Below the pieces are notes generated by a model. That model did no database searches. It saw only the letters and a program-made list of their open reading frames with translations, and had not been told where the DNA came from. A stretch of 55,492 bases of DNA, taken from NCBI GenBank assembly GCA_017440375.1, contig JAFSHK010000030.1, positions 1 through 55,492 on the forward strand, read 5' to 3'. Numbering within the stretch: position 1 is the first letter of the stretch; every line of letters begins with the position of its first letter. This stretch comes from Lachnospiraceae bacterium (lineage in GTDB: Bacteria; Bacillota; Clostridia; Lachnospirales; Lachnospiraceae). The translations under genes were made by a program, and so were the position numbers. Positions 30,686 through 43,313 of the stretch are shown here, piece by piece.

Positions 30686-30756
30686 AACTTTTGTGACGAG
30701 TACAGAGTACCTGCATACAATAATTAAGAAGAATGTTATTGTATGCAGGTATTTAT

Positions 30757-31443
30757 ATGAGCGAAAAAATAATGCGGAGCACGCAGATGGAAGGAGAACA
30801 GACTGGCGGGCTGCAAATAAATGTTACCTCAGATATCGGCTTGATACCGATTCGGAATGCAGTGATTACCATTGCTTTTACCGATGCACCGGAAACAACG
30901 CTGGAAACGTTGGAAACAGATATTTCCGGTCAGGCAGAGGAAGTACAGCTTTCGGCACCGCCATTTGAATATAGTCAGGTGCCGGAATCTCCAAGACCAT
31001 ATTCGGAATACAATCTGATGATAGAAGCGCCGGGATATGAACCGGTTATGATATCCGGTGTTGAGGTACTTCCTGACGTAACAGCAGTGCAGAATATTCG
31101 AATGACACCGCTTGAAACCTCAGGAGAACCGGAAGAAACAATTGTTATTCCGGATCACACCTTGTATGGTATTTATCCACCCAAAATTCCGGAGGATGAA
31201 ATTAAGCCGATGGATGAGACCGGAGAGATTGTTTTGAGTCGTGTTGTAGTGCCGGAGTACGTTATTGTTCATGATGGTGTACCAAATGATTCTAGTGCAC
31301 CAAACTATTATGTCAGATACAAGGATTATATCAAAAACGTTGCCTCGTCCGAAATTTATGCAACTTGGCCGGAAAGCTCCATTTATGCAAACATTCTGGC
31401 AATTTTGTCTTTTACATTAAACAGGGTATATACGGAGTGGTAG
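30757..31443 (+). pseudogene. SpoIID-like peptidoglycan-binding protein gene, 5' part
   Basis: The first 228 codons of a host gene cut by the mobile elements. The N-terminal part (about 10-125) looks like a beta-rich carboxypeptidase-regulatory-like fold (GLQINVTSDIGLIPIRNAVI, YNLMIEAPGYEPVMISGVEV), then a proline-rich linker, then the start of a SpoIID-like region (ANILAILSFTLNRVYTEW). The TAG at 31441-31443 is made by the element end. Joined after TGG 31440 to TAC 42732, the frame continues as RVYTEW-YRNQGYNF. ATG 30757 was chosen as start; GCAGG upstream is a weak site, and ATG 30787 is possible. Confidence 0.85.
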
Positions 31444-31463
31444 CGGAACAGATGGTTTTGAGT
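31421..31463 (+). other. attL: host left half joined to element 1 left arm
   Basis: Host coding sequence ends at TACGGAGTGG; core GGTA lies at 31439-31442 with central GT at 31440-31441; the element 1 arm follows (CGGAA 31444-31448, TTTGAGT 31457-31463). Confidence 0.8.
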
Positions 31464-31614
31464 TGTTTCCTACTTCCGGTGCAACTATTAGCATAAAATC
31501 GATGAAAATAGTAGTACATTTAAGTACAATGAATAATTTTGTTGATAAGGAAGTTGAAATAAATATAATGTATTCCTTTCAGAAAGATTTTGTGCTATTA
31601 TAGTATTTGTAAAT

Positions 31615-31642
31615 TTGACATTTTTATACAAAAAAATATTTT
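31615..31642 (+). promoter_or_regulatory. Putative promoter of the DUF5722-like gene
   Basis: TTGACA at 31615-31620 and TATTTT at 31637-31642 with a 16 bp spacer, inside element 1 and about 33 bp before the start codon. Confidence 0.5.
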
Positions 31643-31674
31643 TTAAGCATAGATAAGTGATAGGGGAGGATAAA

Positions 31675-33327
31675 ATGAGCAAAATCAAAAAAACAGTCAT
31701 GATGTTGTTGGCAACGGTGGTTGCGGTAGTAGTAGCAGTGGGAGGTGCGGTGTTGCCAGAAAGTAATACGATGCAGGTTGAGGCATCAGGCCGCTCGGTT
31801 ACCATTGATACCTGCTTGATTTCGGGAACAGACGTGGTATGTCAAATTAGTGCAAGCAGTGTTCCAACAAGTGATGATGGAAAATATTATATTTATGCAG
31901 ATGAAGTTTATCAGGATGGCACAACAGGAAGTGTGGTTGCGACTATTGATGCTGGAAAATCTGTTACGGCAAGTTTTCCGTTAAAGTATAATACGACAGA
32001 GTCTAATTTGAGTCGTAAGTTTCTGGTTGCCGTAAAGCGTAATGGACAGATGACACAGGTAAGTGATGAACATTACATTACGAATCCGGAAGTAATTGCA
32101 GCACATACTTCACCTAGAAAGCCGGCAACCATTAAAGGTATTTTACCGGATCTTACCAAAGCTTCTAAAGAAGAATTACAGGCACTCGGTGTTTCGCAGG
32201 TTGTTTACAATATGTATATAGACGATATTTGCTCGGATGCATCTGTTCCGGGGGCAATTCCTTTTAAATACAATGGGCAGATGTATTATTTTGACAGCAA
32301 TATGGTTGGTAAATATGATTCCATGATTAGAAGCTTTAATGTTTATGGAATGCAGGTTACCATGGTTCTTTTAAACCGTGGCGAGGGTCTTTATTCACAG
32401 GATTTGGTTCGTGCTGATGCGGTAGAAGCTGAGTGTCCGGGATATGCATTGAATGTAGAGGAAGCAGCCGGAGTGAATCATTTGAAAGCAATCGGTGCAT
32501 TCTTGGGACAGCGTTATTCCGGTAAATTTAACTTTGGTCAGGTAGATAACTGGATTTTGGGTAATGAGGTCAATGCAAGAACATCATGGTGGTATACCAA
32601 TTCAGAATCATTAGATTTCAACGTAAATATTTATGTGAAAGCATTCCGTATTATTTATAATGAAATGAAAGGTATGAATGCAAATGTTCGCATTTATAAT
32701 TCCATTGACCAGGAGTGGAATCGTAAATCCAATCCGGGAAGTTTTCTGGCAAAAGACTATTTAGATCAGTTTAATTATTATATGAATCGAGAGGGAAATA
32801 TTGATTGGGGGCTTTCCTATCATCCATATAACTCTCCGTTGTATGACCCTTACGCATGGAACGGACCGGCAGTATGGGTAAAAGATGATATTACAACACC
32901 ATACATCACAATGCAGAATATTGATATTTTGATTGATTATATGCATCAGGAACATTTCCTGAATCCGGCAGGTGAGGTTAGAAGTATTTCCATTGCAGAA
33001 ATCGGATATACATCCAGTTTTGGTGATGCGGCACAAGAGGCATCCATTGCCTATGGTTATTTGAAAGCAGCTTCTCTTCCGGATGTAGATGCATTTTTGC
33101 TGTTCCGTCAGACAGATGATGCACATGAAATGGAAAGTAATCTGGCACTTGGATTATATGACCTGAACGGAAATAAGAAACCGGCATATTATATTTATCA
33201 GAGTCTTGGCACAGCAAACGAAGCGACTGCCAAAGCAAGAGCATCAGAAATTATCGGTATGGACATCGACCAGATGATTCGTGAGGGAATTATGTGGACT
33301 CGAAATGGCGATGGAGTTGTACAGTAA
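31675..33327 (+). CDS. Secreted DUF5722-like (glycoside hydrolase fold) protein
   Basis: A 550-residue secreted protein, the only cargo of element 1. A signal peptide (about 1-38) ends near QVEASG. A short beta-rich domain (about 40-140) is followed by a TIM-barrel-like region that I recognise as DUF5722: NPEVIAAHTSPRKPATIKG, LGVSQVVYNM, NWILGNEVNAR and SIAEIGYTSS. The glutamates in GNE and AEIG are placed like the acid/base and nucleophile of GH-A clan glycosidases; that is inference. GGGGAGG precedes ATG 31675. Codon use and style look like the host, so it probably came from a related bacterium. A terminator follows. Confidence 0.75.
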   Translation: MSKIKKTVMMLLATVVAVVVAVGGAVLPESNTMQVEASGRSVTIDTCLISGTDVVCQISASSVPTSDDGKYYIYADEVYQDGTTGSVVATIDAGKSVTASFPLKYNTTESNLSRKFLVAVKRNGQMTQVSDEHYITNPEVIAAHTSPRKPATIKGILPDLTKASKEELQALGVSQVVYNMYIDDICSDASVPGAIPFKYNGQMYYFDSNMVGKYDSMIRSFNVYGMQVTMVLLNRGEGLYSQDLVRADAVEAECPGYALNVEEAAGVNHLKAIGAFLGQRYSGKFNFGQVDNWILGNEVNARTSWWYTNSESLDFNVNIYVKAFRIIYNEMKGMNANVRIYNSIDQEWNRKSNPGSFLAKDYLDQFNYYMNREGNIDWGLSYHPYNSPLYDPYAWNGPAVWVKDDITTPYITMQNIDILIDYMHQEHFLNPAGEVRSISIAEIGYTSSFGDAAQEASIAYGYLKAASLPDVDAFLLFRQTDDAHEMESNLALGLYDLNGNKKPAYYIYQSLGTANEATAKARASEIIGMDIDQMIREGIMWTRNGDGVVQ

Positions 33328-33339
33328 ATAGATTGTTTG

Positions 33340-33381
33340 AAATGGTTATCATACTTGAAAGAGTGTGGTAACCATTTTTTA
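33340..33381 (+). terminator. Terminator after the DUF5722-like gene
   Basis: AAATGGTTA (33340-33348) pairs with TAACCATTT (33369-33377), and the T-run extends to 33380. Confidence 0.85.
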
Positions 33382-33538
33382 TGTGCCTAATATGTGTGGA
33401 CTTTTAAAACACTTTTATAATTCTGCATAAAAAAATGCTTTTTTGGAATAAACGGAGAATTCATTTGTAGGATAATCTAAAAAAGTAAATGTATAGGGGA
33501 AAAGTACTGCTATGAAGTAATACTCTGAATACAGCCAA

Positions 33539-33553
33539 GCTATGTCACATAGC
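33539..33553. promoter_or_regulatory. Palindrome upstream of the recombinase 1 operon
   Basis: GCTATG TCA CATAGC is a perfect inverted repeat 35 bp before the small ORF. It could be an operator or leader hairpin. No convincing promoter was identified in 33381-33588. Confidence 0.4.
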
Positions 33554-33588
33554 AATAGAAGTAAGAAAGTGTACCCAGAGGATAACAG

Positions 33589-33810
33589 GTGGTCACTAAG
33601 TCAATCGTGCTCAAACATCAAAACAAAGAAGTAAAAGTCACAGTAGAATTTCCTATACAGTCAGATAAGGTAGCAGAGCAGGAGTTTATCGGCAGGCTTA
33701 AAGAAATGTATTTAAGAAAAATCGGCATAGAGGATAGACAAGGGGATAATTCGTCGAGATCAGTTTCCTTCGCAAAGAGACAATCTATAGAAAGCGGTAG
33801 AGAAGCATGA
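33589..33810 (+). CDS. Small protein preceding recombinase 1
   Basis: A 73-residue protein starting at GTG 33589 after AGAGG. Its stop overlaps the recombinase start (ATGA), which suggests translational coupling. The central stretch VKVTVEFP followed by an amphipathic helix (EFIGRLKEMYLRKI) resembles MKVIIECP plus VRLILVNALQEHLKKI in the 77-residue ORF before recombinase 2. The two small ORFs thus appear to be a family. A recombination accessory or directionality role is possible from position alone. No known domain was recognised. Confidence 0.65.
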   Translation: MVTKSIVLKHQNKEVKVTVEFPIQSDKVAEQEFIGRLKEMYLRKIGIEDRQGDNSSRSVSFAKRQSIESGREA

Positions 33811-35600
33811 GCAAGAAAGTAAGAACCCTACTAAGAGTATCATCAAAACAACAACTACATGACGATGATATTCCGATGCAGAGAGCAGAAGCAGAGGAAT
33901 ATATTGTGAAACGTTCCGATTGGGTATTTGACAAAGAATATCTGGAAAAAGCTGTATCAGCATATAAGAATAGTGTGGCTGATAGAGAAATCCTACAAGA
34001 GATTTTAGAAGATGCTAAAAAGCAAGAGTTTGATATATTGCTTACATATATGTCTGATAGAATTGGGAGGCAGGAAGAGTACAGCTTCTATGTTGCAACG
34101 TTGAATCAGCTTGGGATTGAGGTTTGGACAATAAAGGATGGACAGCTAAAGACCGAGGAACACATTGATAAGCTATTAAATTACATACGCTTCTGGCAAA
34201 ACGAAGGGGAAAGTAAGAAAACCAGTATGAGGGTTCGTGATGCACAAAAGGAAATGGTGTTGTCTGGAAAGTTTGTAGGTGGAAAAGCCCCTTTTGGTTA
34301 TAAATTGATACCCTCCGGAGAAATCAGCAATCATGGTCGCTTGTTAAAGAAGCTGGAAGTAGTAGAGCGAGATGCAGAAATTGTCAAAAAGATGTATTAT
34401 TTAGCAATTTATCAAGGCATGGGATACGAAAAAATTGCGAAAACCTTGAATGCAGAAGGTCTACCAGCCATTACAACTAATGAATGGAAAGCTTCAACGA
34501 TAGCAAGTATTTTAAAAAATCCGATTTACATGGGGTATTATGCACTAAACAGACGAGTAAATCAAAGTGGTAATAATTTGAGTGGACTTCAAAGATTGGA
34601 TCGTAGAGAATGGGTTTATTCGGAAAAACAGATTCCGGAATTAGTAATTATAGAGCCGCAGATGTGGGAGAAAGCGCAGGAAATCAGGGAAGCAAGAAAA
34701 GCAAAAATCAATGCTTCCAAAGAGGCGTCTTCCAGACAATACGAGGAACAATACAATGTCCCTTTTAGTACCAAGGGAAAGTTAGTCTTAATCGGTTTAA
34801 CATATTGTGGGTATTGTGGAAAGCGATTGAAGAATGGAAGCTATTGCAATCACTGGACAATAAAGTCCACTGGAGAGAAGAAAGTAGCTTTTACCGGGAG
34901 ATATGTATGTTCCGATAAATGCGCTATACGCAACTGTTATTCTCAAAATTATCTGGAAGGGATTGTGTTTGAGATTATTGAAGGTTATATGAAATATCTG
35001 AAAAGTGTAGATGTCACGGCAGAACTGGACAAAATACAAAAGCGAAAAAAATCCAGTATAGAGAAAGAATTACAGGCGATTAAAAAAGAAACGAAGAAGC
35101 TAAGAGAAGATATCGAGACTCTGGAGGAAAAAATACCGGAAGCCATTCGTGGAGATTATTATTTCAGTGCAGAGAAATTATCTTCCTTAATCAAAGAAAA
35201 GGAACAGCAGTTAACGGAATTACAGCAGAGTGAGAAGGAAATCCAAAGGAAGTTACAGAAGACAGAGTTAGCAGGCAGTGATTTGGAAAAGCTTATCACT
35301 AAAATCCCAAACTGGAAAGAAGAATTTAGAAATGCAGATACAGCAACAAAACAAATGCTACTATCCTCTTTAATTGATAGAATCGAAGTGAAAGATAGTG
35401 ACATAAAGATAAAATTCAAAATCCGACTGGAAGATTTTGCGGACTTTGAAGCTGATATAAGAAAAGAAAATTCTGTACTCAAATCTATTGATTCCGAGGT
35501 AGGGAGTACACCACTCATTCGTGGTTGCAGGAGTTTGATTATCAATGAACTAGTGATTAAGATTACTGGAAAGACTTCCTACGAAATAGAATACCGATAG
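33807..35600 (+). CDS. Large serine recombinase 1
   Basis: A 597-residue site-specific recombinase. The resolvase domain begins LLRVSSKQQ with the catalytic serine near residue 12 and DRIGRQEEY later; the recombinase domain follows (GKAPFGYKLI, LKNPIYMGYY), then a zinc ribbon (CGYCGKRL ... CSDKC) and a long coiled coil (about 415-470). It should cut at the GGTA core of element 1. Its reading frame crosses the internal att core: residues after IDSEV are encoded by the left end of element 2, so the last 33 residues are borrowed. In the element 1 circle the frame would instead continue 18 codons from the element's left end. Confidence 0.85.
   Translation: MSKKVRTLLRVSSKQQLHDDDIPMQRAEAEEYIVKRSDWVFDKEYLEKAVSAYKNSVADREILQEILEDAKKQEFDILLTYMSDRIGRQEEYSFYVATLNQLGIEVWTIKDGQLKTEEHIDKLLNYIRFWQNEGESKKTSMRVRDAQKEMVLSGKFVGGKAPFGYKLIPSGEISNHGRLLKKLEVVERDAEIVKKMYYLAIYQGMGYEKIAKTLNAEGLPAITTNEWKASTIASILKNPIYMGYYALNRRVNQSGNNLSGLQRLDRREWVYSEKQIPELVIIEPQMWEKAQEIREARKAKINASKEASSRQYEEQYNVPFSTKGKLVLIGLTYCGYCGKRLKNGSYCNHWTIKSTGEKKVAFTGRYVCSDKCAIRNCYSQNYLEGIVFEIIEGYMKYLKSVDVTAELDKIQKRKKSSIEKELQAIKKETKKLREDIETLEEKIPEAIRGDYYFSAEKLSSLIKEKEQQLTELQQSEKEIQRKLQKTELAGSDLEKLITKIPNWKEEFRNADTATKQMLLSSLIDRIEVKDSDIKIKFKIRLEDFADFEADIRKENSVLKSIDSEVGSTPLIRGCRSLIINELVIKITGKTSYEIEYR
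35477..35528 (+). other. Internal att site between element 1 and element 2
   Basis: Left arm of element 1's attP (35477-35496), core GGTA at 35498-35501, right arm of element 2's attP (35509-35528). It has no host sequence, so it is an element-element junction inside recombinase 1. Confidence 0.8.
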
Positions 35601-35623
35601 AATGGACAAGCTCCTAGAAAAAA

Positions 35624-35652
35624 GAAAGACAGGCACGAAAACCTGTCTTTCA
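35624..35652 (+). terminator. Terminator at the left end of element 2
   Basis: GAAAGACAGG (35624-35633) pairs with CCTGTCTTTC (35642-35651). A second GC-rich hairpin (GGGGTGG 35713-35719 / CCACCCC 35725-35731) lies further on. Confidence 0.7.
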
Positions 35653-35807
35653 AAATGTAAGCATTTATAATCTAAAACTTTTGCCGAGGTCACTCGGACA
35701 CATTCACTTTATGGGGTGGGGTTACCACCCCTTATATGTATTGTATCATACAAAATTTTGAAATGCAAATCTTCAACAAACTGAAAGTTATGCGTGTATC
35801 TTACTTT

Positions 35808-36284
35808 TTACATTGTTTCTGCATCCAACCATTCCTTACTTAGTTCTCCACAATTCTCGCATGTTAAAGAAATACTAATCCACTCAAATGCATCTACCCA
35901 ATCTTCTACCGAAAATGAATCATCAGTCGATAAACATTCGTCAATAAAATCTTCCTTACCTTGAGATGAGATATGAACAAGAACCTTGAAACAATCTTCT
36001 TTACAATTAGAACAATGATACTTATTATATGGCAACTCTCTATTAAGAAAGTCATCTCCACATACAAATCCATTCCAACCATGTTTGCCACTATCGAATA
36101 TTACATATTCTTTCTTGCATTGCTTACATAAAATTTTTACCATTAATTGCTCATTACTTTCCCATATTTCAAAATATTCATTTCCACATGAACACTTTAT
36201 TTCTCCTGTTACTTCAAATTCGTTATTATCATTTCCAACAGGGAAAAATATATCTTTCAAATGTGTTGGTACTGGCAATTCCAT
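35808..36284 (-). CDS. Zinc-ribbon protein of unknown function
   Basis: A 158-residue protein with four cysteine pairs: CSCG, CKQC, CSNC and CENC. They suggest two zinc ribbons. GGAGG lies before the ATG. I do not recognise the family. It is the last gene on the minus strand in element 2, 39 bp after its upstream neighbour, and probably shares its transcript. It could be cargo with a host-interaction or defence role, but nothing in the sequence shows that. Confidence 0.7.
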   Translation of the reverse strand: MELPVPTHLKDIFFPVGNDNNEFEVTGEIKCSCGNEYFEIWESNEQLMVKILCKQCKKEYVIFDSGKHGWNGFVCGDDFLNRELPYNKYHCSNCKEDCFKVLVHISSQGKEDFIDECLSTDDSFSVEDWVDAFEWISISLTCENCGELSKEWLDAETM

Positions 36285-36323
36285 AGTATTATTCCTCCAT
36301 CAAATTCAATTTTTACTTTCTTC

Positions 36324-36941
36324 TTAGTGGAACAAGTTATTATCCACAATATATTTTAAATTACATCTATTTAACATCCATGATTTATTCCTTGCCCCAT
36401 TTTGATATTGAATAACCTGTTCTTTATATTCGTCAGATAACCCCTCATATATTTGTTGTGCTTTATCTTTAATTATTTCCTGACCTAAATTATCTGCCAC
36501 AAAGTCAAGATACACATTATATTTTTCAAACCCTTCAAAGAAAAGATATCGTATAGCTGCATTATAATCTTCATCAAATCTTTTTACCAAATCCATCGCA
36601 GTATCTCGAAATCTTTTTTCTAATATATTCTTCGTTTCAAGCAATTTACTTTCCGTTGATATATCATACCAATACCCATCTGTGGGATTATAACTCATAG
36701 ATGCTATTACATTGTCAACTGGTAATTTTCCATATTTTTTATAAATAATCCTCAAATCGGCATTTACTTCGATACTCTGCCCAGATGCATTCCATTTTGA
36801 CGAGAAAAAGTTTATTTCAAACACAATGTCTTTTACTGTTTTCTTCAAAATACCACTTTTTAAATACTTAAAGCCAGTTACTGTTGACAACTCACATATT
36901 AATCTTGTTTTCGTTTCTTCAACACTTAAAATATTTTCCAT
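36324..36941 (-). CDS. Hypothetical protein, possibly DUF4304-like
   Basis: A 205-residue soluble protein. The first half has the pattern 'fold with N-terminal helix, then strands' reading GFKYLKSGILKKTV, IVFEINFFSSKWNASGQSIEVNADLRI, which reminds me of DUF4304; the match is weak. The rest is helical. Start chosen at ATG 36941 after AGGAG rather than the longer frame to 37001. The AT-rich sequence and its style differ from the flanking host genes, as expected for cargo. Confidence 0.6.
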   Translation of the reverse strand: MENILSVEETKTRLICELSTVTGFKYLKSGILKKTVKDIVFEINFFSSKWNASGQSIEVNADLRIIYKKYGKLPVDNVIASMSYNPTDGYWYDISTESKLLETKNILEKRFRDTAMDLVKRFDEDYNAAIRYLFFEGFEKYNVYLDFVADNLGQEIIKDKAQQIYEGLSDEYKEQVIQYQNGARNKSWMLNRCNLKYIVDNNLFH

Positions 36942-37019
36942 TTTTTCTCCTAATAACCCATGTGAAACTTCAAATTTTCCAAAGAGAATTATATCACACA
37001 TTCCCAGAAATAACTACCG

Positions 37020-37919
37020 CTATTTTAGGTACGAAGTAATGCTTGTATCGATACGTGTGTGCCCCAGACAATTCGAAATAATCCATACTGAATCACGCTC
37101 AAAAATATTTCCCTCTCGGTCTTTATAATATGGACTTTTAACTTTTTCTTGTCGTGGAGGGTAGTAAGTTAAGTATTCATCTCTAAGCTTTCTGTTATTC
37201 TTTAGTGTATTATGTAGTGCTTGTGCGTACTCTCTACGCAAGCCATGCACATCTATTTCCTTTGGGATATGCTCAAATATTTTTTGTTGTCCATTTTCTT
37301 TTGCTTTGTCTATGATAGCTTTTATTTCCTGTACTTTATCTGGATGAACAAGAGCAAGGCGGTCACGTCCACCTTTGCTTTTTCTTATATCAAGAAAGTA
37401 ATGTCCATTTTTCTCCACCAGACAATTAACTGTTAATCTTGTTGCGTCACATCTACGACACCCTGTTGAAGTAACCATAGTAAAAATGTCTTTATATTTT
37501 CCTGTTCTGCTTATGTGTTTATCGTTTGCGGTTTCAAGTCGGCTTCTTGTCACGTCTTTACTATGGCGAACAGGGAGCGGAATGTCGAAGCTGTGTCCGT
37601 ATATCATACCAAGTGCAGAACGCTCCATTTTAAGCGTATAGAGCGATTTTCCTTCGTCTAAACGTGTTTCTATGTATTCTTTAACATAACGCTCTGTATG
37701 AGCCAATGAGCCATATTTAACACCTTTATCCATAAGCCACCTTGCATATTCTTCTCCAACCTTGCGATAGGTGTCATAAGTATCAAAGGAATATATTTTA
37801 TAGGTGCTTTCGCCAAATTTCTTTTCCTGTTCAATTTTATCTGTATGCTTACTTTCTCCGTATGCGATTTTATCAGCTAACGAAGAATGAATTTGATTTG
37901 CTATTGTTTTTCTTCCCAA
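37020..37919 (-). CDS. Tyrosine recombinase / phage integrase-family protein
   Basis: A 299-residue protein with a helical SAM-like N-terminal domain (about 45-110) and a C-terminal catalytic domain. Candidate catalytic residues: an arginine in STGCRRCDATRLT, the lysine in KSKGGRDR, HGLRR, and LGHTRIDTSITSYL with the final tyrosine. The TTG start at 37919 is supported by GGAGG 7 bases upstream. A tyrosine enzyme within an element that also has a serine recombinase may resolve multimers, invert DNA or be a remnant. Promoter P3 lies about 200 bp upstream. Confidence 0.75.
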   Translation of the reverse strand: MGRKTIANQIHSSLADKIAYGESKHTDKIEQEKKFGESTYKIYSFDTYDTYRKVGEEYARWLMDKGVKYGSLAHTERYVKEYIETRLDEGKSLYTLKMERSALGMIYGHSFDIPLPVRHSKDVTRSRLETANDKHISRTGKYKDIFTMVTSTGCRRCDATRLTVNCLVEKNGHYFLDIRKSKGGRDRLALVHPDKVQEIKAIIDKAKENGQQKIFEHIPKEIDVHGLRREYAQALHNTLKNNRKLRDEYLTYYPPRQEKVKSPYYKDREGNIFERDSVWIISNCLGHTRIDTSITSYLK

Positions 37920-38426
37920 TTAAAAACCTCCATGTTCTATATAATCTTGTTAAACCCGAAAATATCGGTGGTAGGCTTTTATTTACCTGCTTGCCCTTGC
38001 AGGCTTTTTCTTCTCTCTATATAAAATGCCAATCGGCATATTGCTAAGTTGTTATATGGGTAAACTTGTGAAACACTATACTAAGAATATCCGTAGTCAT
38101 GGATATATCAGAAATACTTACACCTATATTATATAGCATAGAATTGATATATCCAAATATACAAGGCTTATAAGCGTTTACATACTACATAAAATGTGTA
38201 TGTAACGATATAAGCTAAGGTATGGGGGCGGGCATTACCCTCATAGCCAAGCAGAACATTTTCAATGCAAATCAGTTCCAGTCATGTCACCGCAAATCAT
38301 TACTTTACCAGACATATCATTGCAGTTCATTACATTATAAGAATACCTTTTGCATAATAAGGGAGTATTTATAGCTTCCGCACGGAATATTAGATGAAGT
38401 ACCCATAAAACAGGGCACTTCACAAA
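37920..38426. other. Long noncoding stretch in element 2 with possible control or origin signals
   Basis: No convincing gene. It holds promoter P3, the GGATATATCA inverted repeat, related ATCATT/TTCATTAC words near 38290-38335 (possible decayed iterons), and the hairpin GAAGTACCC (38396-38404) / GGGCACTTC (38413-38421) at the end of the upstream gene. It could contain an origin of replication or transfer, but no nick-site motif was recognised. Confidence 0.4.
38101..38156 (-). promoter_or_regulatory. Promoter P3 with inverted-repeat operator
   Basis: Minus strand TTGGAT (38156-38151), 17 bp spacer, TATAAT (38133-38128). GGATATATCA (38101-38110) and its perfect complement TGATATATCC (38145-38154) bracket the start region, one half overlapping the -35. 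It points at the tyrosine recombinase gene. Confidence 0.6.
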
Positions 38427-39020
38427 TTAAAAATTAAATTCGTTAGTGAAATCTTCGTCATCGTCATATTCGCGTGCAAGTTGTTGGTAGTAAGCATCAC
38501 GTTCGGAATCTTCAAATTGTTGAGTTTGATTTTCTGTTATTGACTTTTTCTTGGCATTGTTTTGTTTACTCTTTCTATCTCGACTTCTTCTGGCTTGTAA
38601 CATTTCCCAGTTGTATATTTGCTGTATATCTGTTAAGTATTCAGAATCATCATAATGAAAAGTTCTGATAACTTTTTCTTGAATCAAAGTATCAATAATA
38701 GGTAAACATTCTTCTTTTAAAACACCCCATAAGGGTAGACATTCTGCAATATCTTCTTTAGTAACGTTGTCCCATTTTATATACCAACTTGTTTGACACA
38801 TTCGTTTTCGTAGGTATAAGTAAACTATCATAGTTTTACTGTTTTCTTTAACTAATTTACGAAAAATGGGATTATTGTCAAACTCGTTTACTTCAACTGT
38901 GATATAGTCCATTGTTTGCTCGTAGCATACACCTTTTTCACTTTTAATAGGGTGTTTTTTTGCCAATTCATCAAATATATTGTTATCAATGATTTTATAT
39001 TTTTGGATTTTTCCTGCCAT
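38427..39020 (-). CDS. Hypothetical protein, possibly replication-related
   Basis: A 197-residue protein. A segment around residues 55-140 (MIVYLYLRKRM, WDNVTKEDIAECL, IIDTLIQEKVI) resembles a winged-helix arrangement of the type seen in plasmid and phage replication initiators, while the C-terminus is charged (RRSRDRKSKQ) and ends in an acidic tail. The resemblance is structural impression only. AAGGAGA lies before ATG 39020. It lies 28 bp after the 104-residue gene and is probably in the same operon. Confidence 0.6.
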   Translation of the reverse strand: MAGKIQKYKIIDNNIFDELAKKHPIKSEKGVCYEQTMDYITVEVNEFDNNPIFRKLVKENSKTMIVYLYLRKRMCQTSWYIKWDNVTKEDIAECLPLWGVLKEECLPIIDTLIQEKVIRTFHYDDSEYLTDIQQIYNWEMLQARRSRDRKSKQNNAKKKSITENQTQQFEDSERDAYYQQLAREYDDDEDFTNEFNF

Positions 39021-39048
39021 AATTTTTCTCCTTTCTAGGAGAGAAGCA

Positions 39049-39363
39049 CTAGGCTTCTTCTCCTGTTGAGTTTTCAATAGTGTTTTTAAGATGTTCTATA
39101 AGTTTAAGATATTCTTTTTTTGTTTTGAGATAGACACCCTCAAACAATGCCACAGCCAAAAGAGGCTGTTCTGCGACAATAAGAATGTCTAATAACTCTG
39201 GTAGCGAAAAAGATTCGATAGTAAAAAGAAGTGCATAAAAGTCGAGCTTTGGATTTTCTGTTGCATGAGAGCTATCATCAACAAGCGAATGAAAAACTGA
39301 ACAGAATAAAGCTACAAATTTGATACTGGTAACATCGAGTAATAAATTTAAATTTTTTGGCAT
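39049..39363 (-). CDS. Hypothetical helical protein
   Basis: A 104-residue protein, mostly helical, with repeated hydrophobic stretches (LLLDVTSIKFVALFCSVF, LPELLDILIVAEQPLLAVALF). I do not recognise it. AAAGGAG precedes the ATG. It is the first gene behind promoter P1, whose leader has two copies of the element's operator motif. Confidence 0.6.
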   Translation of the reverse strand: MPKNLNLLLDVTSIKFVALFCSVFHSLVDDSSHATENPKLDFYALLFTIESFSLPELLDILIVAEQPLLAVALFEGVYLKTKKEYLKLIEHLKNTIENSTGEEA

Positions 39364-39410
39364 AGTTTATATCTCCTTTCATAAAACATGGTTTACGTGT
39401 TACATGCTAG

Positions 39411-39513
39411 CCACTTTTTGTGAGCTTGCATAAGATTAAAAAATATATCCCCTCGTTGAGAGGATATATCTATGATATACCATGTTTTTAAATTTGTCAA
39501 CCACTTTTTATGA
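39411..39513 (-). promoter_or_regulatory. Promoter P1 with two operator copies and a leader hairpin
   Basis: Minus strand TTGACA (39500-39495), 17 bp spacer, TATCAT (39477-39472). One operator copy (CCACTTTTTATGA, 39501-39513) abuts the -35; another (CCACTTTTTGTGA, 39411-39423) lies in the leader. At the start site, ATATATCCCCTC (39443-39454) and GAGAGGATATAT (39458-39469) form an 11 of 12 hairpin. Confidence 0.7.
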
Positions 39514-39528
39514 GCCCTCTGTATTTTC

Positions 39529-40590
39529 TTATAAATCGATTGGTCTGGTAGATAAATATTGTTCTATGTTACAGCAAGTGTAAAAGTCCGTTGCTTCATT
39601 CCCTGCATTTATCCAATTTTCAAACTGATTGATTAAGTTTTCGTCATATAGTTTTAAACAACGTGCAAGCTCTTTCTTACCACCATGGTGTTTCAGTTTT
39701 AAGCGTTCATAGTCAATAGGGAATATCATAGGTATCTTATTATAGATACATGATAACTCTAAATTATTGCTATCTTCGCACATTTGCATGAGTTTTTCAA
39801 AGTTCTCTGGAACTGGTCTGTTTCTCTTTACAAGGCTTGATATAACAAAATGTTTCTCCATGAGTTCCAATTCTTCCTTATAATTAACTGTCTGCTCGTA
39901 GCTGTCTGCTTTCATGTGAAAGCCATTCTTGCTACAGCCTGCCATAGCCACTGCCATTTTCTCTGGAATTTTGAAAAGCTCATAGAGCCAAAAAGCCACA
40001 CGGAACGAGGTTGTATATCCGCTACCGATACGACCTCTGTTGTCTTGAATGTCTCCGTCCTCTAAACCATTAACCAATTCAAAGGCTCGTTCATATTCTA
40101 TCGGAGAACGTGGCTGAAAGCCGAAATCACAAGTGCTGTATTCGGATAAAGCACTTTCCCTTGTGTAGTCTGGAATGAGTACCCCGATATTCGCTTCTCG
40201 GAATATTCGGTAATACTTCTTTATATTATCACAGCTTCCAAAAGCATTGATTGAGGTTACTACAATGACCGTGCTAAAAGGTCTGGTATAACAGCTCTTT
40301 GCTTGTTCTACGATACAATCCAACTTGTAGTTCATTCCTCTGCGTGAGCTTGTTATCACATCAACCTGCAACATATCGTCTGGCTTGAATACCATATTGT
40401 TTTCTATAATACTATATTCTGGATTAAGTTCTCTATCTTCAATAGGAAGAAACAAATCTTTATATGCTAACGCTGTATTCTTGTAATCGTGGTAGAGCTT
40501 AGTGTTTTCAAAGTTGGCAATAAGCTCCTCTTTTCTATGTCCTGTGCGAATGCTTGCATATCCATATATATGCTCTGGCATTGTATACAT
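39529..40590 (-). CDS. Resolvase-like protein lacking the catalytic serine
   Basis: A 353-residue protein. Its first residues YGYASIRTG look like the GYARVST strand of serine resolvases, but the catalytic serine position is arginine (R15). A region near residues 75-145 has the resolvase pattern (ITSSRRG, TVIVVTSINAFGS, IKKYYRIFREANIGVLIPDY). It lacks the zinc ribbon and coiled coil of the two recombinases. It may be a catalytically dead DNA-binding protein or regulator; I do not know the family. It shares a divergent control region with recombinase 2. ATG 40590 follows AAAGGAGAG; ATG 40581 is possible. Confidence 0.6.
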   Translation of the reverse strand: MYTMPEHIYGYASIRTGHRKEELIANFENTKLYHDYKNTALAYKDLFLPIEDRELNPEYSIIENNMVFKPDDMLQVDVITSSRRGMNYKLDCIVEQAKSCYTRPFSTVIVVTSINAFGSCDNIKKYYRIFREANIGVLIPDYTRESALSEYSTCDFGFQPRSPIEYERAFELVNGLEDGDIQDNRGRIGSGYTTSFRVAFWLYELFKIPEKMAVAMAGCSKNGFHMKADSYEQTVNYKEELELMEKHFVISSLVKRNRPVPENFEKLMQMCEDSNNLELSCIYNKIPMIFPIDYERLKLKHHGGKKELARCLKLYDENLINQFENWINAGNEATDFYTCCNIEQYLSTRPIDL

Positions 40591-40624
40591 ATATCGAAAC
40601 TCTCCTTTCTGGATTGATACCTAC

Positions 40625-40718
40625 ATTATATAATATCGCTCTCGATAAGTCAACCCACAAAAAGTGGTTGACAAAACAAAATTCTCATGATAGCATATAG
40701 TTATACCACAAAAAGTGG
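40625..40718. promoter_or_regulatory. Divergent promoters around a shared operator
   Basis: Minus strand: TTGACT 40653-40648, 17 bp, TATAAT 40630-40625 (to the resolvase-like gene). Plus strand: TTGACA 40668-40673, 17 bp, TAGCAT 40691-40696 (to the small ORF and recombinase 2). The perfect inverted repeat CCAC-AAAAA-GTGG at 40655-40667 lies between the two -35 boxes. A second copy at 40706-40718 lies at the plus-strand transcription start. Confidence 0.8.
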
Positions 40719-40769
40719 TTAATCAAACGCAAGGAGGTTGAAAATATCAGAGAAAGGAGTTGATGTCCA

Positions 40770-41003
40770 ATGGTTAAGAAAACCGAATGTGACAAGCTCC
40801 CTAATAATAATATTGTAAAGAACGATATTGATGTGGAGCTGTCAATGACTAATACAACCTATCAGCAAACAGAGATTAAAAAGGGTGGAATGAAAGTTAT
40901 CATTGAATGTCCCGACTATTCAGACGAGGACGACAAGATAAAAGACGAGGTGCGACTTATCCTCGTTAATGCCTTACAGGAACACCTAAAGAAAATCTCA
41001 TAA
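40770..41003 (+). CDS. Small protein preceding recombinase 2
   Basis: A 77-residue acidic protein, ATG 40770 with AAAGGAG about 10 bases upstream. The second half (MKVIIECPDYSDEDDK then a helix VRLILVNALQEHLKKI) matches the pattern of the small ORF before recombinase 1. A hairpin (GCAGGGGA 41011-41018 / TCCCCTGC 41023-41030) separates it from the recombinase, which follows after 53 bp. Confidence 0.65.
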   Translation: MVKKTECDKLPNNNIVKNDIDVELSMTNTTYQQTEIKKGGMKVIIECPDYSDEDDKIKDEVRLILVNALQEHLKKIS

Positions 41004-41056
41004 TTATACAGCAGGGGAGTTTTCCCCTGCTCCGAAGAAAGGAGCGTGTTATATAT

Positions 41057-42751
41057 ATGAAACGAGTAAGAATGTTATTACGAGTGAGTTCAGACCAACA
41101 GCTTGAAGCCACAGGTGACTTATCCATTCAACGACAGATTTTGCAGGATTTCATTTCTAAACAAGATGATTGGGTGCTTGATACTAAGGAATATTTTGAG
41201 GGAAGCAAAAGTGCCTACAAGAACACCGCAGAGGAACGAGATGTACTACAAGAGATTTTAGAGGACGCAAGGAACAAAGAGTTTGATATTTTAGTCCCCT
41301 ATAAAGATGATAGAGTTGGACGTCTCATGCTTAATACTTCCTTATATGTAGTAAACTTAAAACGATACAACGTTGATGTGTATTCAGTAAAGGACGGGTG
41401 CATATCTCCTAAGTCAGATGATGACATAGAGGGAATGATGATGTTAATGTTCCGTTATGCAAATGCCCAAAAGAGCAGTAAGGACACAGGAATGCGTGTT
41501 AAAGATACCGCACAGAAATTAGTACAAGGCGGAAAATTCATGGGTGGTTCTGCTCCATTTGGTTATACACTAGAGTTTTCTGGACAAATCAGTAAGCATG
41601 GACGAGCTCTCAAACATCTGGTTATAGTACCAGAACAGGCAGAGCTTGTAAAACACATTTACAGCCTGTCATTAAACAAAGAATATGGCTCGGCTAAAAT
41701 TGCTAAGGAATTGAACTTAAATGAAAAGCATAAGACGTTAGCACCAAACGGAGTTTGGAAAGGTGGAACAATTACGAGTATACTTACCAACCCAATCTAC
41801 GCAGGGCATACAGCCTATAAAAGACGAGAACGCATAAACGGACAATATCACAGATTAGACAGTAAGGATTGGATAACTTCCTATGAAGCTAACGAAGAAA
41901 TTACTATTATTGATAGTGACACATGGAACAAAGTACAAGATAAGCGTAAACAACGCAACGATAAATATATTAAAAAACTTGAGAATAAAGATGTTACAGT
42001 AATTAGGAGGAATGACGGAATGTTACCTTTAGTAGATGTATTGCATTGTGGTTATTGTGGTTCAAAAATGGTTAATGGTAGCAAGTACAACTATTGGACG
42101 ATTAAAGGAACTGGCGAAAGGCGAGCAAGCAAAATTCCTATTTACAAGTGCCAAAATGCTTGGCAGGGTGTACCCCATGACAAAACAAAAATGCACAGAG
42201 CCGATTTACTTGAACCAATCGTGTTTGAAGCATTATCTCAATATATTGGTAAGCTCCAAGAAAATGAAAACGTATTTGAGCAGATTGAGCAAAACCACAA
42301 TTCTGAAAAGAAACAGCTTGAAAAGCTAGTTAAGAAAGAAAAACAGGAACTTGCAAAGATACAGAAAAAAATTGATGTAATGGAAAGCAACATTCCAAAT
42401 GCTATGCTTGGCGAATATCCACTTTCTTTAGAAGAGCTTGTTTCTATCATAAAGAAGCATAAGGAACAACTGGAAGCACAACAGGAAGTGGTAAAGCAAA
42501 AGGAATTAGAGTTTAAAAATTCTTCTGTGAGTGCTGATGATTGGAAAACACTACGAGAGCAAATACCAACATGGCAAGAAGTTTTCCTTAACGCAGATGT
42601 GGCAACTAAACGAGTGTTAGTAAATAAGTTAATAGAGCGAATTGATGTTAAGAAAGATGAAGTCGTTATCCGCTTCAAAATCAATCTTAACGATTTTTTT
42701 CAGCAACCCCGAATGAGTGGTGAGTTCGAGGTACCGGAATCAAGGCTATAA
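41057..42751 (+). CDS. Large serine recombinase 2
   Basis: A 564-residue paralogue of recombinase 1 (shared: LLRVSS, SAYKNT, VLQEILEDA, EFDIL, KDDRVGR). Catalytic serine near residue 11; recombinase domain with GSAPFGYTLE and LTNPIYAGH; zinc ribbon CGYCGSKM; coiled coil about 390-440. Its 3' end crosses the attR core, so the last residues (PESRL) are encoded by host DNA in a different frame from the host protein. In the circular element 2 the frame would instead run on into the 33-residue tail now fused to recombinase 1. No terminator follows, so its transcript may enter the host operon. Confidence 0.85.
   Translation: MKRVRMLLRVSSDQQLEATGDLSIQRQILQDFISKQDDWVLDTKEYFEGSKSAYKNTAEERDVLQEILEDARNKEFDILVPYKDDRVGRLMLNTSLYVVNLKRYNVDVYSVKDGCISPKSDDDIEGMMMLMFRYANAQKSSKDTGMRVKDTAQKLVQGGKFMGGSAPFGYTLEFSGQISKHGRALKHLVIVPEQAELVKHIYSLSLNKEYGSAKIAKELNLNEKHKTLAPNGVWKGGTITSILTNPIYAGHTAYKRRERINGQYHRLDSKDWITSYEANEEITIIDSDTWNKVQDKRKQRNDKYIKKLENKDVTVIRRNDGMLPLVDVLHCGYCGSKMVNGSKYNYWTIKGTGERRASKIPIYKCQNAWQGVPHDKTKMHRADLLEPIVFEALSQYIGKLQENENVFEQIEQNHNSEKKQLEKLVKKEKQELAKIQKKIDVMESNIPNAMLGEYPLSLEELVSIIKKHKEQLEAQQEVVKQKELEFKNSSVSADDWKTLREQIPTWQEVFLNADVATKRVLVNKLIERIDVKKDEVVIRFKINLNDFFQQPRMSGEFEVPESRL
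42703..42750 (+). other. attR: element 2 right arm joined to host right half
   Basis: Element 2 arm GCAACCCCGAATGAGTGGTG (42703-42722), core GGTA at 42730-42733, then host sequence from CCGGAATCAAGG. Host CGGAATCAA (42735-42743) mirrors TTGATTCCG in the left arm of element 1 (35488-35496) at the same distance from the core. Confidence 0.8.
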
Positions 42752-43313
42752 CTTCACTATCACATCTTCGACAGCCTATGATCAGAAATGGATTTACGGT
42801 AGGAATACGTTTGAAAATATTGACCGTCTGGTGGATTCCATTTTTGCCAATTTCCTTTCCAGACCGGGGGTAAGACAGCCAATTTTTACATCTTATTGCG
42901 ATGGCAAAAGAGTCACTTGTGATGGTCTCAGCCAGTGGGGCTCCAAGTATTTGGGAGACGAAGGATATTCGGCAATTGAAATTATTCGTTATTATTACGG
43001 TAGTGATATGTATATTAATACAGCGGTTAGTATTTCCGGAGTACCGTCTTCTTTTCCGGGCTATAATCTAACGATTGGTGCATCCGGTGATAAGGTAAGG
43101 CAGTTGCAGCAACAGTTGAACCGGATTGCACAGAACTTTCCGGCGATTCCAAGAGTGACAGTAGATGGTATCTATGGGCAGGGAACTGCAGAAGCAGTAA
43201 GAGTTTTTCAACGAGTATTTGGTTTACCGGCAACAGGTATAACAGATTATCCAACGTGGTATGAAATTTCTAATATCTATGTAGGAGTCAGCCGAATTGC
43301 AGAACCAAATTGA
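42732..43313 (+). pseudogene. SpoIID-like peptidoglycan-binding protein gene, 3' part
   Basis: The last 193 codons of the split gene. It continues the SpoIID-like region (YNFTITSSTAYDQKWIYGRN, then CDGLSQWGSKYLGDEGYSA) and ends in a peptidoglycan-binding type 1 domain (IGASGDKVRQLQQQLNRI, VDGIYGQGTAEAVRVFQ). GTG or ATG codons just before the junction (42713-42717) keep a frame open but have no ribosome binding site. The intact protein would have 421 residues. SpoIID proteins act on the cell wall during engulfment; here the role is inferred only from similarity. It ends 12 bp before the next gene. Confidence 0.85.

Follow-up and report, generated by a model that had tools for sequence, protein, structure and literature searches.

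Why would a gene whose product is predicted to degrade the spore cortex be cut in two by recombinase-bearing DNA, and could its halves be rejoined? The question is raised by a stretch of 55,492 nucleotides from a Lachnospiraceae bacterium (positions 1 to 55,492 of contig JAFSHK010000030.1, assembly GCA_017440375.1), hereafter the window, to which all window coordinates refer. A first-pass annotation of this DNA had proposed that two independent serine-recombinase elements are stacked in one SpoIID-like gene, that their excision would restore the gene in frame, and that the pair might act as a switch for a cell-wall gene at the head of an operon. Here, the gene is identified as sleC, the gene of a spore cortex-lytic enzyme, and the interruption probably serves as a developmental switch of the kind known from skin in sigK. 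We place at roughly 85% the probability of the whole explanation, namely that two elements sit at the same bacterial attachment site (attB) and that their excision in the mother cell restores a sleC gene transcribed by sigma-K.

The split gene and its identity

Joining position 31440 of the window to position 42732 yielded a single open frame with zero internal stops, of 429 codons if read from a start at 30733 or of 421 codons, the length first proposed, if read from the ATG at 30757. The 5′ frame is open from 30733 to a stop at 31443, and the break falls inside the SpoIID-like region, the 5′ part ending in TGG (Trp-236 of the 429-codon frame) and the 3′ part restarting with TAC (Tyr-237). 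The start at 30757 is the likelier one, since a sigma-K-like box at 30696-30722 would leave a start at 30733 without room. The GGTA cores predicted at 31439, 35498 and 42730 are all exact, and GGTACC is weak evidence when taken alone, with 7 copies in the window against 3.5 expected and 7 reached in 6 of 100 shuffles. The layout of the locus is as follows.

30757..31440, plus strand: 5′ part of sleC, ending inside the SpoIID-like domain at Trp-236 (429-codon numbering)
31440..31441, plus strand: attL of unit 1, core GT (within GGTA 31439-31442)
31441..35499, plus strand: unit 1, 4059 bp, with a DUF5722 gene, a small open reading frame (ORF) and recombinase 1
35499..35500, plus strand: middle junction, core GT, joining the unit 1 right end to the unit 2 left end (P1 arm / P2′ arm, no host half-site)
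35500..42731, plus strand: unit 2, 7232 bp, with minus-strand cargo, a small ORF and recombinase 2
42731..42732, plus strand: attR of unit 2, core GT (within GGTA 42730-42733)
42732..43313, plus strand: 3′ part of sleC, with the remaining SpoIID-like domain and the peptidoglycan-binding domain (PF01471, E value 2.5e-16)

Taken alone, each half of the window's gene matched the same Protein Data Bank chain, 9h68_A ("Spore cortex-lytic enzyme pre-pro-form"), the 5′ half over residues 59-282 (E 1e-58) and the 3′ half over residues 283-475 (E 2.1e-67), such that the two halves meet at the consecutive residues 282|283. The same chain matched a profile of 15 intact relatives with an E value of 1.1e-162 and, with an E value of 3.4e-126, an uninterrupted relative belonging to the window's genus. 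Because the relatives' profile, the intact relative and both halves all match 9h68_A, the interrupted gene is, on sequence similarity, sleC, and its product is predicted to be the cortex-degrading enzyme of germination. The similarity underlying membership of the SleC family is full-length and includes both the SpoIID-like and the peptidoglycan-binding regions; in profile searches the peptidoglycan-binding part was clear and the SpoIID-like part weak. In Clostridioides difficile, sleC is among the bona fide targets of sigma-K (PMC3789822), and germination requires Pre-pro-SleC (PMC10747680). The gene is thus not a general cell-wall gene, as first described, but one for a spore germination enzyme, and the idea of a switch survives in a skin-like form, supported indirectly by linkage to spoIVA, by promoter-like boxes and by selection, excision itself not having been seen.

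Interruptions in relatives and the link to sporulation

Searching 200 genomes of the family with the joined protein returned 140 matches, the best 30 of which, all uninterrupted, were fetched. Among the 200, a break at this codon was found in at least the window's genome and six others (G104, G188, G143, G042, G032 and G163; G numbers denote genomes and L numbers loci). In the 41 genomes of the window's genus, sleC was intact in 26, present as pieces ending at this codon in 11, and incomplete or absent in 4. The uninterrupted gene therefore exists in relatives, in place of two halves kept as separate intact genes. At the corresponding position, relatives keep TGG/TAY with the core GT; the exact GGTACC expected from the first reading is not kept.

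A scan of genome collections with an alignment of six recombinases located at least 80 loci. All 80 of those listed hold at least one half of sleC broken at this codon and none holds a whole gene, and the recombinase ends less than 200 nucleotides from the junction in 71 of the 80, the others being L078, L083, L092, L096, L105, L106, L124, L125 and L132. L092, whose 5′ junction near a contig end reads TTC in place of TGG, was left out; each of the pairs L034/L068, L035/L090 and L037/L064 represents one place retrieved under two numbers, and both copies enter the stop-codon and small-gene tallies given below. The core GT was present at both junctions in all 47 rows with both gene halves, a set that includes the window as a row of its own and has one place under two numbers (L034, L068); loci with only one half did not enter the pair counts. 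The interval between the halves was 11.3 kb in the window and 1.9-10.7 kb in the other 46 rows. Elements at this codon (site 1) occur in both orientations, and some 3′ halves end early through further insertion. Commensals with a site-1 element include Faecalicatena orotica (L080), Eubacterium sp. 14-2 (L130), Lachnospiraceae bacterium 10-1 (L111) and Sellimonas caecigallum (L064). The position at the head of an operon looks local, as the ORFs downstream of sleC in L034, L035 and L037 differ from the window's 1216-residue ORF. Viral contigs scanned with the recombinase alignment yielded two relatives only (L133 and L134), and every match to either window recombinase in phage records was below 60% identity, the best among the matches listed reaching 31%.

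In each unit a large serine recombinase is preceded by a small ORF and by a box resembling a sigma-E promoter.

33527..33556, plus strand: sigma-E-like box GAATA-N16-CATA before the small-ORF/recombinase-1 operon
33589..33810, plus strand: small ORF 1, 73 residues, putative recombination directionality factor, overlapping the start of recombinase 1 (family profile E 1.2e-19, not independent, as the profile was built with this sequence included)
33807..35600, plus strand: large serine recombinase 1 (PF00239, PF07508), its last codons read into unit 2
40770..41003, plus strand: small ORF 2, 77 residues at its longest, putative recombination directionality factor (same family profile, E 8.7e-20)
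40785..40814, plus strand: sigma-E-like box GAATG-N16-AATA of the recombinase-2 operon, within the longest small ORF 2 and upstream of an internal Met (40845)
41057..42751, plus strand: large serine recombinase 2, its last codons (PESRL, stop) read from host DNA

Both recombinases carry PF00239 (resolvase N-terminal) and PF07508 (Recombinase) above cut-off. They are 39% alike, and the other site-1 recombinases group with one or the other. The small gene precedes the recombinase in 81 of the 83 site-1 loci listed (80 from the genome scan, L133 and L134 from viral contigs, and the window), with no match in L072, where the contig is cut, and in L134. It was absent from all 11 loci interrupted at a second site (0/11). 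As it adjoins the recombinase behind the box, like CD1234, the directionality factor of the C. difficile skin element (PMC5025042), the small gene is the best candidate for a directionality factor here.

The second site is represented by 10 of the 200 genomes, in which other recombinases, distant from those of the window, interrupt sleC near codon 303 (TGGATGACC). Where serine recombinases were found at this hotspot (L042-L052), they share about 25% identity with those of the window and come without the small gene. In 8 genomes of the 80 listed loci, sleC lies in three pieces, with a break at 236/237 and a second at about 302-315 (L055, L058, L063, L070, L075, L076, L078 and L082; genomes G333-G340). 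Three of these genes each lie on a single contig, with first and second gaps of 5.3 and 57.8 kb in G335, 2.6 and 66.0 kb in G339, and 8.7 and 61.5 kb in G340. Of the ten ORFs read at the ends of the large gap of G339 (Eubacterium plexicaudatum ASF492), two encode serine recombinases, and others encode ABC transporters, a coupling protein of type IV secretion and restriction-modification functions; with recombinases and a coupling protein among these end ORFs, the gap looks like an integrative conjugative element. Multiple insertion thus takes two forms, a stacked pair at one site in the window and insertions at two sites in the eight genomes with a three-piece gene. In L107, L117, L118 and L120, the gene cut at this same codon is a SleC-like paralogue of 33-49% identity that is followed by another C-terminal match; the intervals that interrupt it are 1.9-2.1 kb long and leave little room beyond the small gene and recombinase.

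The SleC family (E < 1e-30, paralogues included) and the sporulation gene spoIVA agreed in 193 of the 200 genomes, both being present in 130 and neither in 63, with seven discordant genomes (SleC family only in 3, spoIVA only in 4; Fisher p 4e-43, uncorrected for genome relatedness). Seven genomes with weak matches only (E between 1e-3 and 1e-7) were scored as lacking the gene in this table; at E < 1e-3, agreement was 188 of 200 with 12 discordant (p 2e-36). Among genomes with an interrupted sleC, spoIVA was found in 15 of 16, a set that leaves out G074, where the codon is read through intact and the breaks are at contig ends, and G132, which was never fetched.

The region upstream of sleC contains two further features.

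30696..30722, plus strand: sigma-K-like promoter of sleC, AC-N16-CATACAATA
30705..30754, plus strand: 20-bp hairpin reaching from the sleC -10 box to the ribosome-binding region (-27 kcal/mol, z -8.3)

The box CATANNNTA was present in 64 of 107 regions upstream of sleC (shuffles: mean 7.7, maximum 14), mostly 30-45 nucleotides before the gene's start and with A(A/C)C 17-19 nucleotides before it. For comparison, the published sigma-K promoter boxes of C. difficile are AC / CATATAAT and its sigma-E promoter of spoIIID is ATA-N16-CATATATA (PMC3789822). Upstream of the small gene, an anchor-free sampler recovered G[AC]AT[AG]-N16-[CA]ATA; a spacing of 16 between the halves of this box was over-represented (24 and 25 of 85; no shuffle exceeded 4), and 59 of the 78 distinct element operons contained the form GHATR-N16-(C/A)ATA (mean of the shuffles 2.6, maximum 5). 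By these resemblances, the boxes of sleC and of the element operons may be read in Lachnospiraceae by sigma-K and sigma-E, respectively. Hairpin arms of at least 8 bp occurred in 23 of the 107 sleC upstream regions (null mean 0.44, maximum 2); the hairpin may end read-through from the upstream gene, in which case sigma-K transcripts would start inside it and escape.

Selection, rival explanations and proposed excision

If insertion ended the use of sleC, its 3′ part would be left to decay. The aligned part of all 67 split 3′ halves (64 distinct) was free of stops; among the 67 split 5′ parts, one (L053) contained a stop. Nonsynonymous to synonymous divergence (dN/dS) was computed for pairs limited to a synonymous divergence (dS) of 0.02-1.2 in the split-locus set or 0.05-1.5 in the genus set; the values for individual split pairs further on are those of chosen pairs. 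In the genus, the median dN/dS was 0.049 for split 3′ parts and 0.054 for split 5′ parts, against 0.060 and 0.086 for intact copies (n = 14, 13, 113 and 59 pairs, some of them duplicated, L163/L165 and L164/L174 being the same loci fetched twice). Purifying selection is thus as strong on split copies as on intact ones. Whole elements aligned over 92-99% of their length in four pairs (L109/L115, L112/L132, L118/L120 and L075/L082), and in these collinear pairs the synonymous divergence of host and recombinase was similar in size. The dN/dS of the 3′ part was 0.009-0.049 in the first three, and L075/L082, whose gene has a second break, showed zero nonsynonymous changes over 69 codons. Horizontal spread between species is also evident, in L054/L055, L091/L093/L094 and L114/L116/L119, where the host genes are saturated or far diverged and the recombinase dS is 0.02-0.05. 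The elements therefore spread and are also maintained, and sleC remains in use.

Several observations weigh against a developmental switch. Since elements move between species, some insertions are recent, and the dN/dS comparison within the genus does not show that insertions are old. spoIVA was not found in the window's own, incomplete genome (68%). The exact sigma-K-like box is missing from 43 of the 107 sleC upstream regions, and no convincing promoter was found directly upstream of the recombinases, CATANNNTA occurring within 150 nucleotides in 0 of 45 and 4 of 40; the sigma-E-like box lies upstream of the small gene instead. In many loci the small ORF, read at its longest, includes this box in frame, and the conservation of the box may be partly coding. 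The box is kept as a promoter candidate because would-be synonymous positions are nearly fixed, because an internal Met common to the aligned sequences lies downstream of it, and because it lies outside the ORF in several loci, unit 1 of the window included. The small protein had no convincing Pfam or PHROG match, and its role as a directionality factor is a guess. As for excised forms, attB and attP2 patterns were absent from the window's assembly, where attP1 was not searched, and exact attP1 and attP2 circle-junction cores were absent from viral contigs.

Much of this would be expected if the insertions were mobile elements of the ordinary kind, which target a conserved attB, excise rarely and without regulation, and leave their carriers with a knocked-out sleC. 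The clear spread between species, the lack of a visible excised form, and the use of other sites in sleC (at about codons 303-313, one of them with the 66-kb stretch holding recombinases and a conjugation gene) all fit such an account. Knocked-out genes, however, should not show the absence of relaxed selection seen in split copies or aligned 3′ halves free of stops, nor would whole elements be expected to co-diverge with the host halves in four pairs or a conserved box of sporulation-sigma type to precede the element operon. We accordingly regard this account as unlikely, though the strongest of the rivals.

A second alternative, that the interval is a single composite 11.3-kb element carrying two recombinases, would agree with the common orientation of both recombinases between the gene halves and with the precedent of gin, a known multi-recombinase intervening element (PMC5595907). 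The ends of the units speak otherwise.

Integration by large serine recombinases leaves hybrid att sites, and the element arms, once reunited, form an inverted-repeat attP. Arms from a unit's own ends were complementary at 15 of 25 positions for unit 1 and at 18 of 25 for unit 2; mixed ends gave 8 of 25 for the outermost pair and 7 of 25 for the inner pair, against a mean of 6.3 (sd 2.1) for shuffled arms and 6 of 25 for the host attB arms. Since each unit's own ends rebuild a palindromic attP and mixed ends do not, the arms support two elements rather than one. A GT core sits between the units, and elsewhere each recombinase type occurs at this codon without the other. The composite is therefore a very improbable reading, and the independence of the two elements, as first claimed, is supported. 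Of the 83 loci listed, the window's is the one with such a stack of two small-gene-bearing elements at a single site. Apart from this, the arms of L125 (8266-13558) resemble two different clades, yet only one recombinase of these clades was found there, possibly a remnant of another stack. Least credible of all, and hardly to be entertained, is that the two parts of the gene act as separate proteins with the element giving the 3′ part its start: 53 of 68 loci do offer an in-frame start ahead of the junction (in the window, a GTG at 42717), a further point to set against a switch, but a sequence like a ribosome-binding site accompanies it in 8 of 68 only, 15 loci have no start at all, the cut falls within the SpoIID-like domain, the gene is in three pieces in 8 genomes, and many relatives keep one intact gene.

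Under the preferred explanation, a developmental switch, two large-serine-recombinase elements would have integrated side by side at the same attB in sleC, a gene expected from the published C. difficile work to be under sigma-K in the mother cell. Each small-gene/recombinase operon would be driven by its sigma-E-like promoter, and in the sporulating mother cell each recombinase and its small partner would excise their element as a circle, rejoining codon 236 to codon 237. The middle junction, with an element arm on both sides, would serve both units: if unit 2 left first, a normal attR would be created for unit 1, and if unit 1 left first, a normal attL for unit 2. Because removal of either leaves normal, host-containing attL and attR sites for the other, stepwise excision of both would restore sleC, which would then be transcribed by sigma-K, both elements staying in the forespore.

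The cargo of the two units differs.

31657..33327, plus strand: DUF5722 protein, cargo of unit 1 (PF18989, E 1.6e-129)
35808..40590, minus strand: cargo ORFs of unit 2, at 35808-36284, 36324-37001, 37020-37919, 38427-39077, 39049-39363 and 39529-40590

A DUF5722 gene is also cargo in six other site-1 elements (L109, L110, L111, L113, L115 and L124); in L108 (5965-7605), it lies outside the element, before sleC. In unit 2, ORF 37020-37919 has weak similarity to tyrosine integrases and ORF 38427-39077 to Lin1244_N. Profile searches of units 1 and 2 revealed no convincing capsid, tail or packaging genes that would mark a temperate phage or prophage; the two phage-named matches were at chance level, the DUF5722 protein hitting PF05801 (lagovirus VP2) at E 0.027, short of that profile's cut-off, and ORF 36324-37001 hitting a PHROG head protein at E 0.084.

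Significance and comparison with known intervening elements

Reports of programmed DNA rearrangement in sporulation have so far treated single genes, mostly from Bacillus and Clostridium. In the present case, elements occupy the same gene in many Lachnospiraceae of the gut, and that gene bears directly on a phenotype, the germination of spores. We lean, by a modest margin, towards viewing sleC in this family as a recurrent developmental docking gene, entered by two recombinase clades at one codon and by others at about codons 303-313, and thereby closed by several locks that must all excise; the reason proposed for such docking is that no cell other than the doomed mother cell needs sleC. If so, all elements would have to leave before spores receive their germination enzyme, and germinability would be conditional on several mobile elements that the spore genome keeps. 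Spores are thought to move Lachnospiraceae between hosts, and, were excision regulated, the transmission of these commensals would depend on mobile elements. The small gene is a candidate for a novel directionality-factor family, paired with two clades of recombinases and of potential value as recombination tools. Neither interruption of sleC nor stacked elements were found in titles and abstract openings of the open-licence papers searched.

Intervening elements are known in sigK, spsM, spoVFB, gerE and yabG (PMC10747680), and the locus shares with skin the interruption of a sporulation or spore gene, the restoration of its frame upon removal, and the possession of its own recombinase and att sites. 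In skin, the recombinase (B. subtilis) or the directionality factor (C. difficile) is under sigma-E and SpoIIID, and excision joins the gene (PMC5025042, PMC517825). As with skin in sigK of both species, a large serine recombinase element occupies a mother-cell sporulation gene; the target here is sleC rather than sigK, two elements are stacked, excision is a prediction, and sleC elements are short (1.9-10.7 kb in 46 rows, against 48 kb for the B. subtilis skin). The units resemble gin in gerE of B. cereus, likewise a non-prophage intervening element that encodes a serine recombinase together with a directionality factor (putative in our case) (PMC5595907), but gin is one 28.6-kb element with three recombinases, in contrast to two separate elements with their own att sites. 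Like yin in yabG of C. botulinum, they are serine-recombinase elements in a sporulation gene controlled by sigma-K, as predicted for sleC here (PMC10747680); yin is reported there as unique to one strain, whereas sleC elements occur in at least 80 loci, most of them titled Lachnospiraceae or its genera. The SP-beta prophage in spsM and vfbin in spoVFB likewise interrupt sporulation genes, spsM being restored by excision (PMC4191935, PMC10747680), but both are described as prophage or prophage-like, unlike the two units in sleC, which are without convincing capsid or tail genes.

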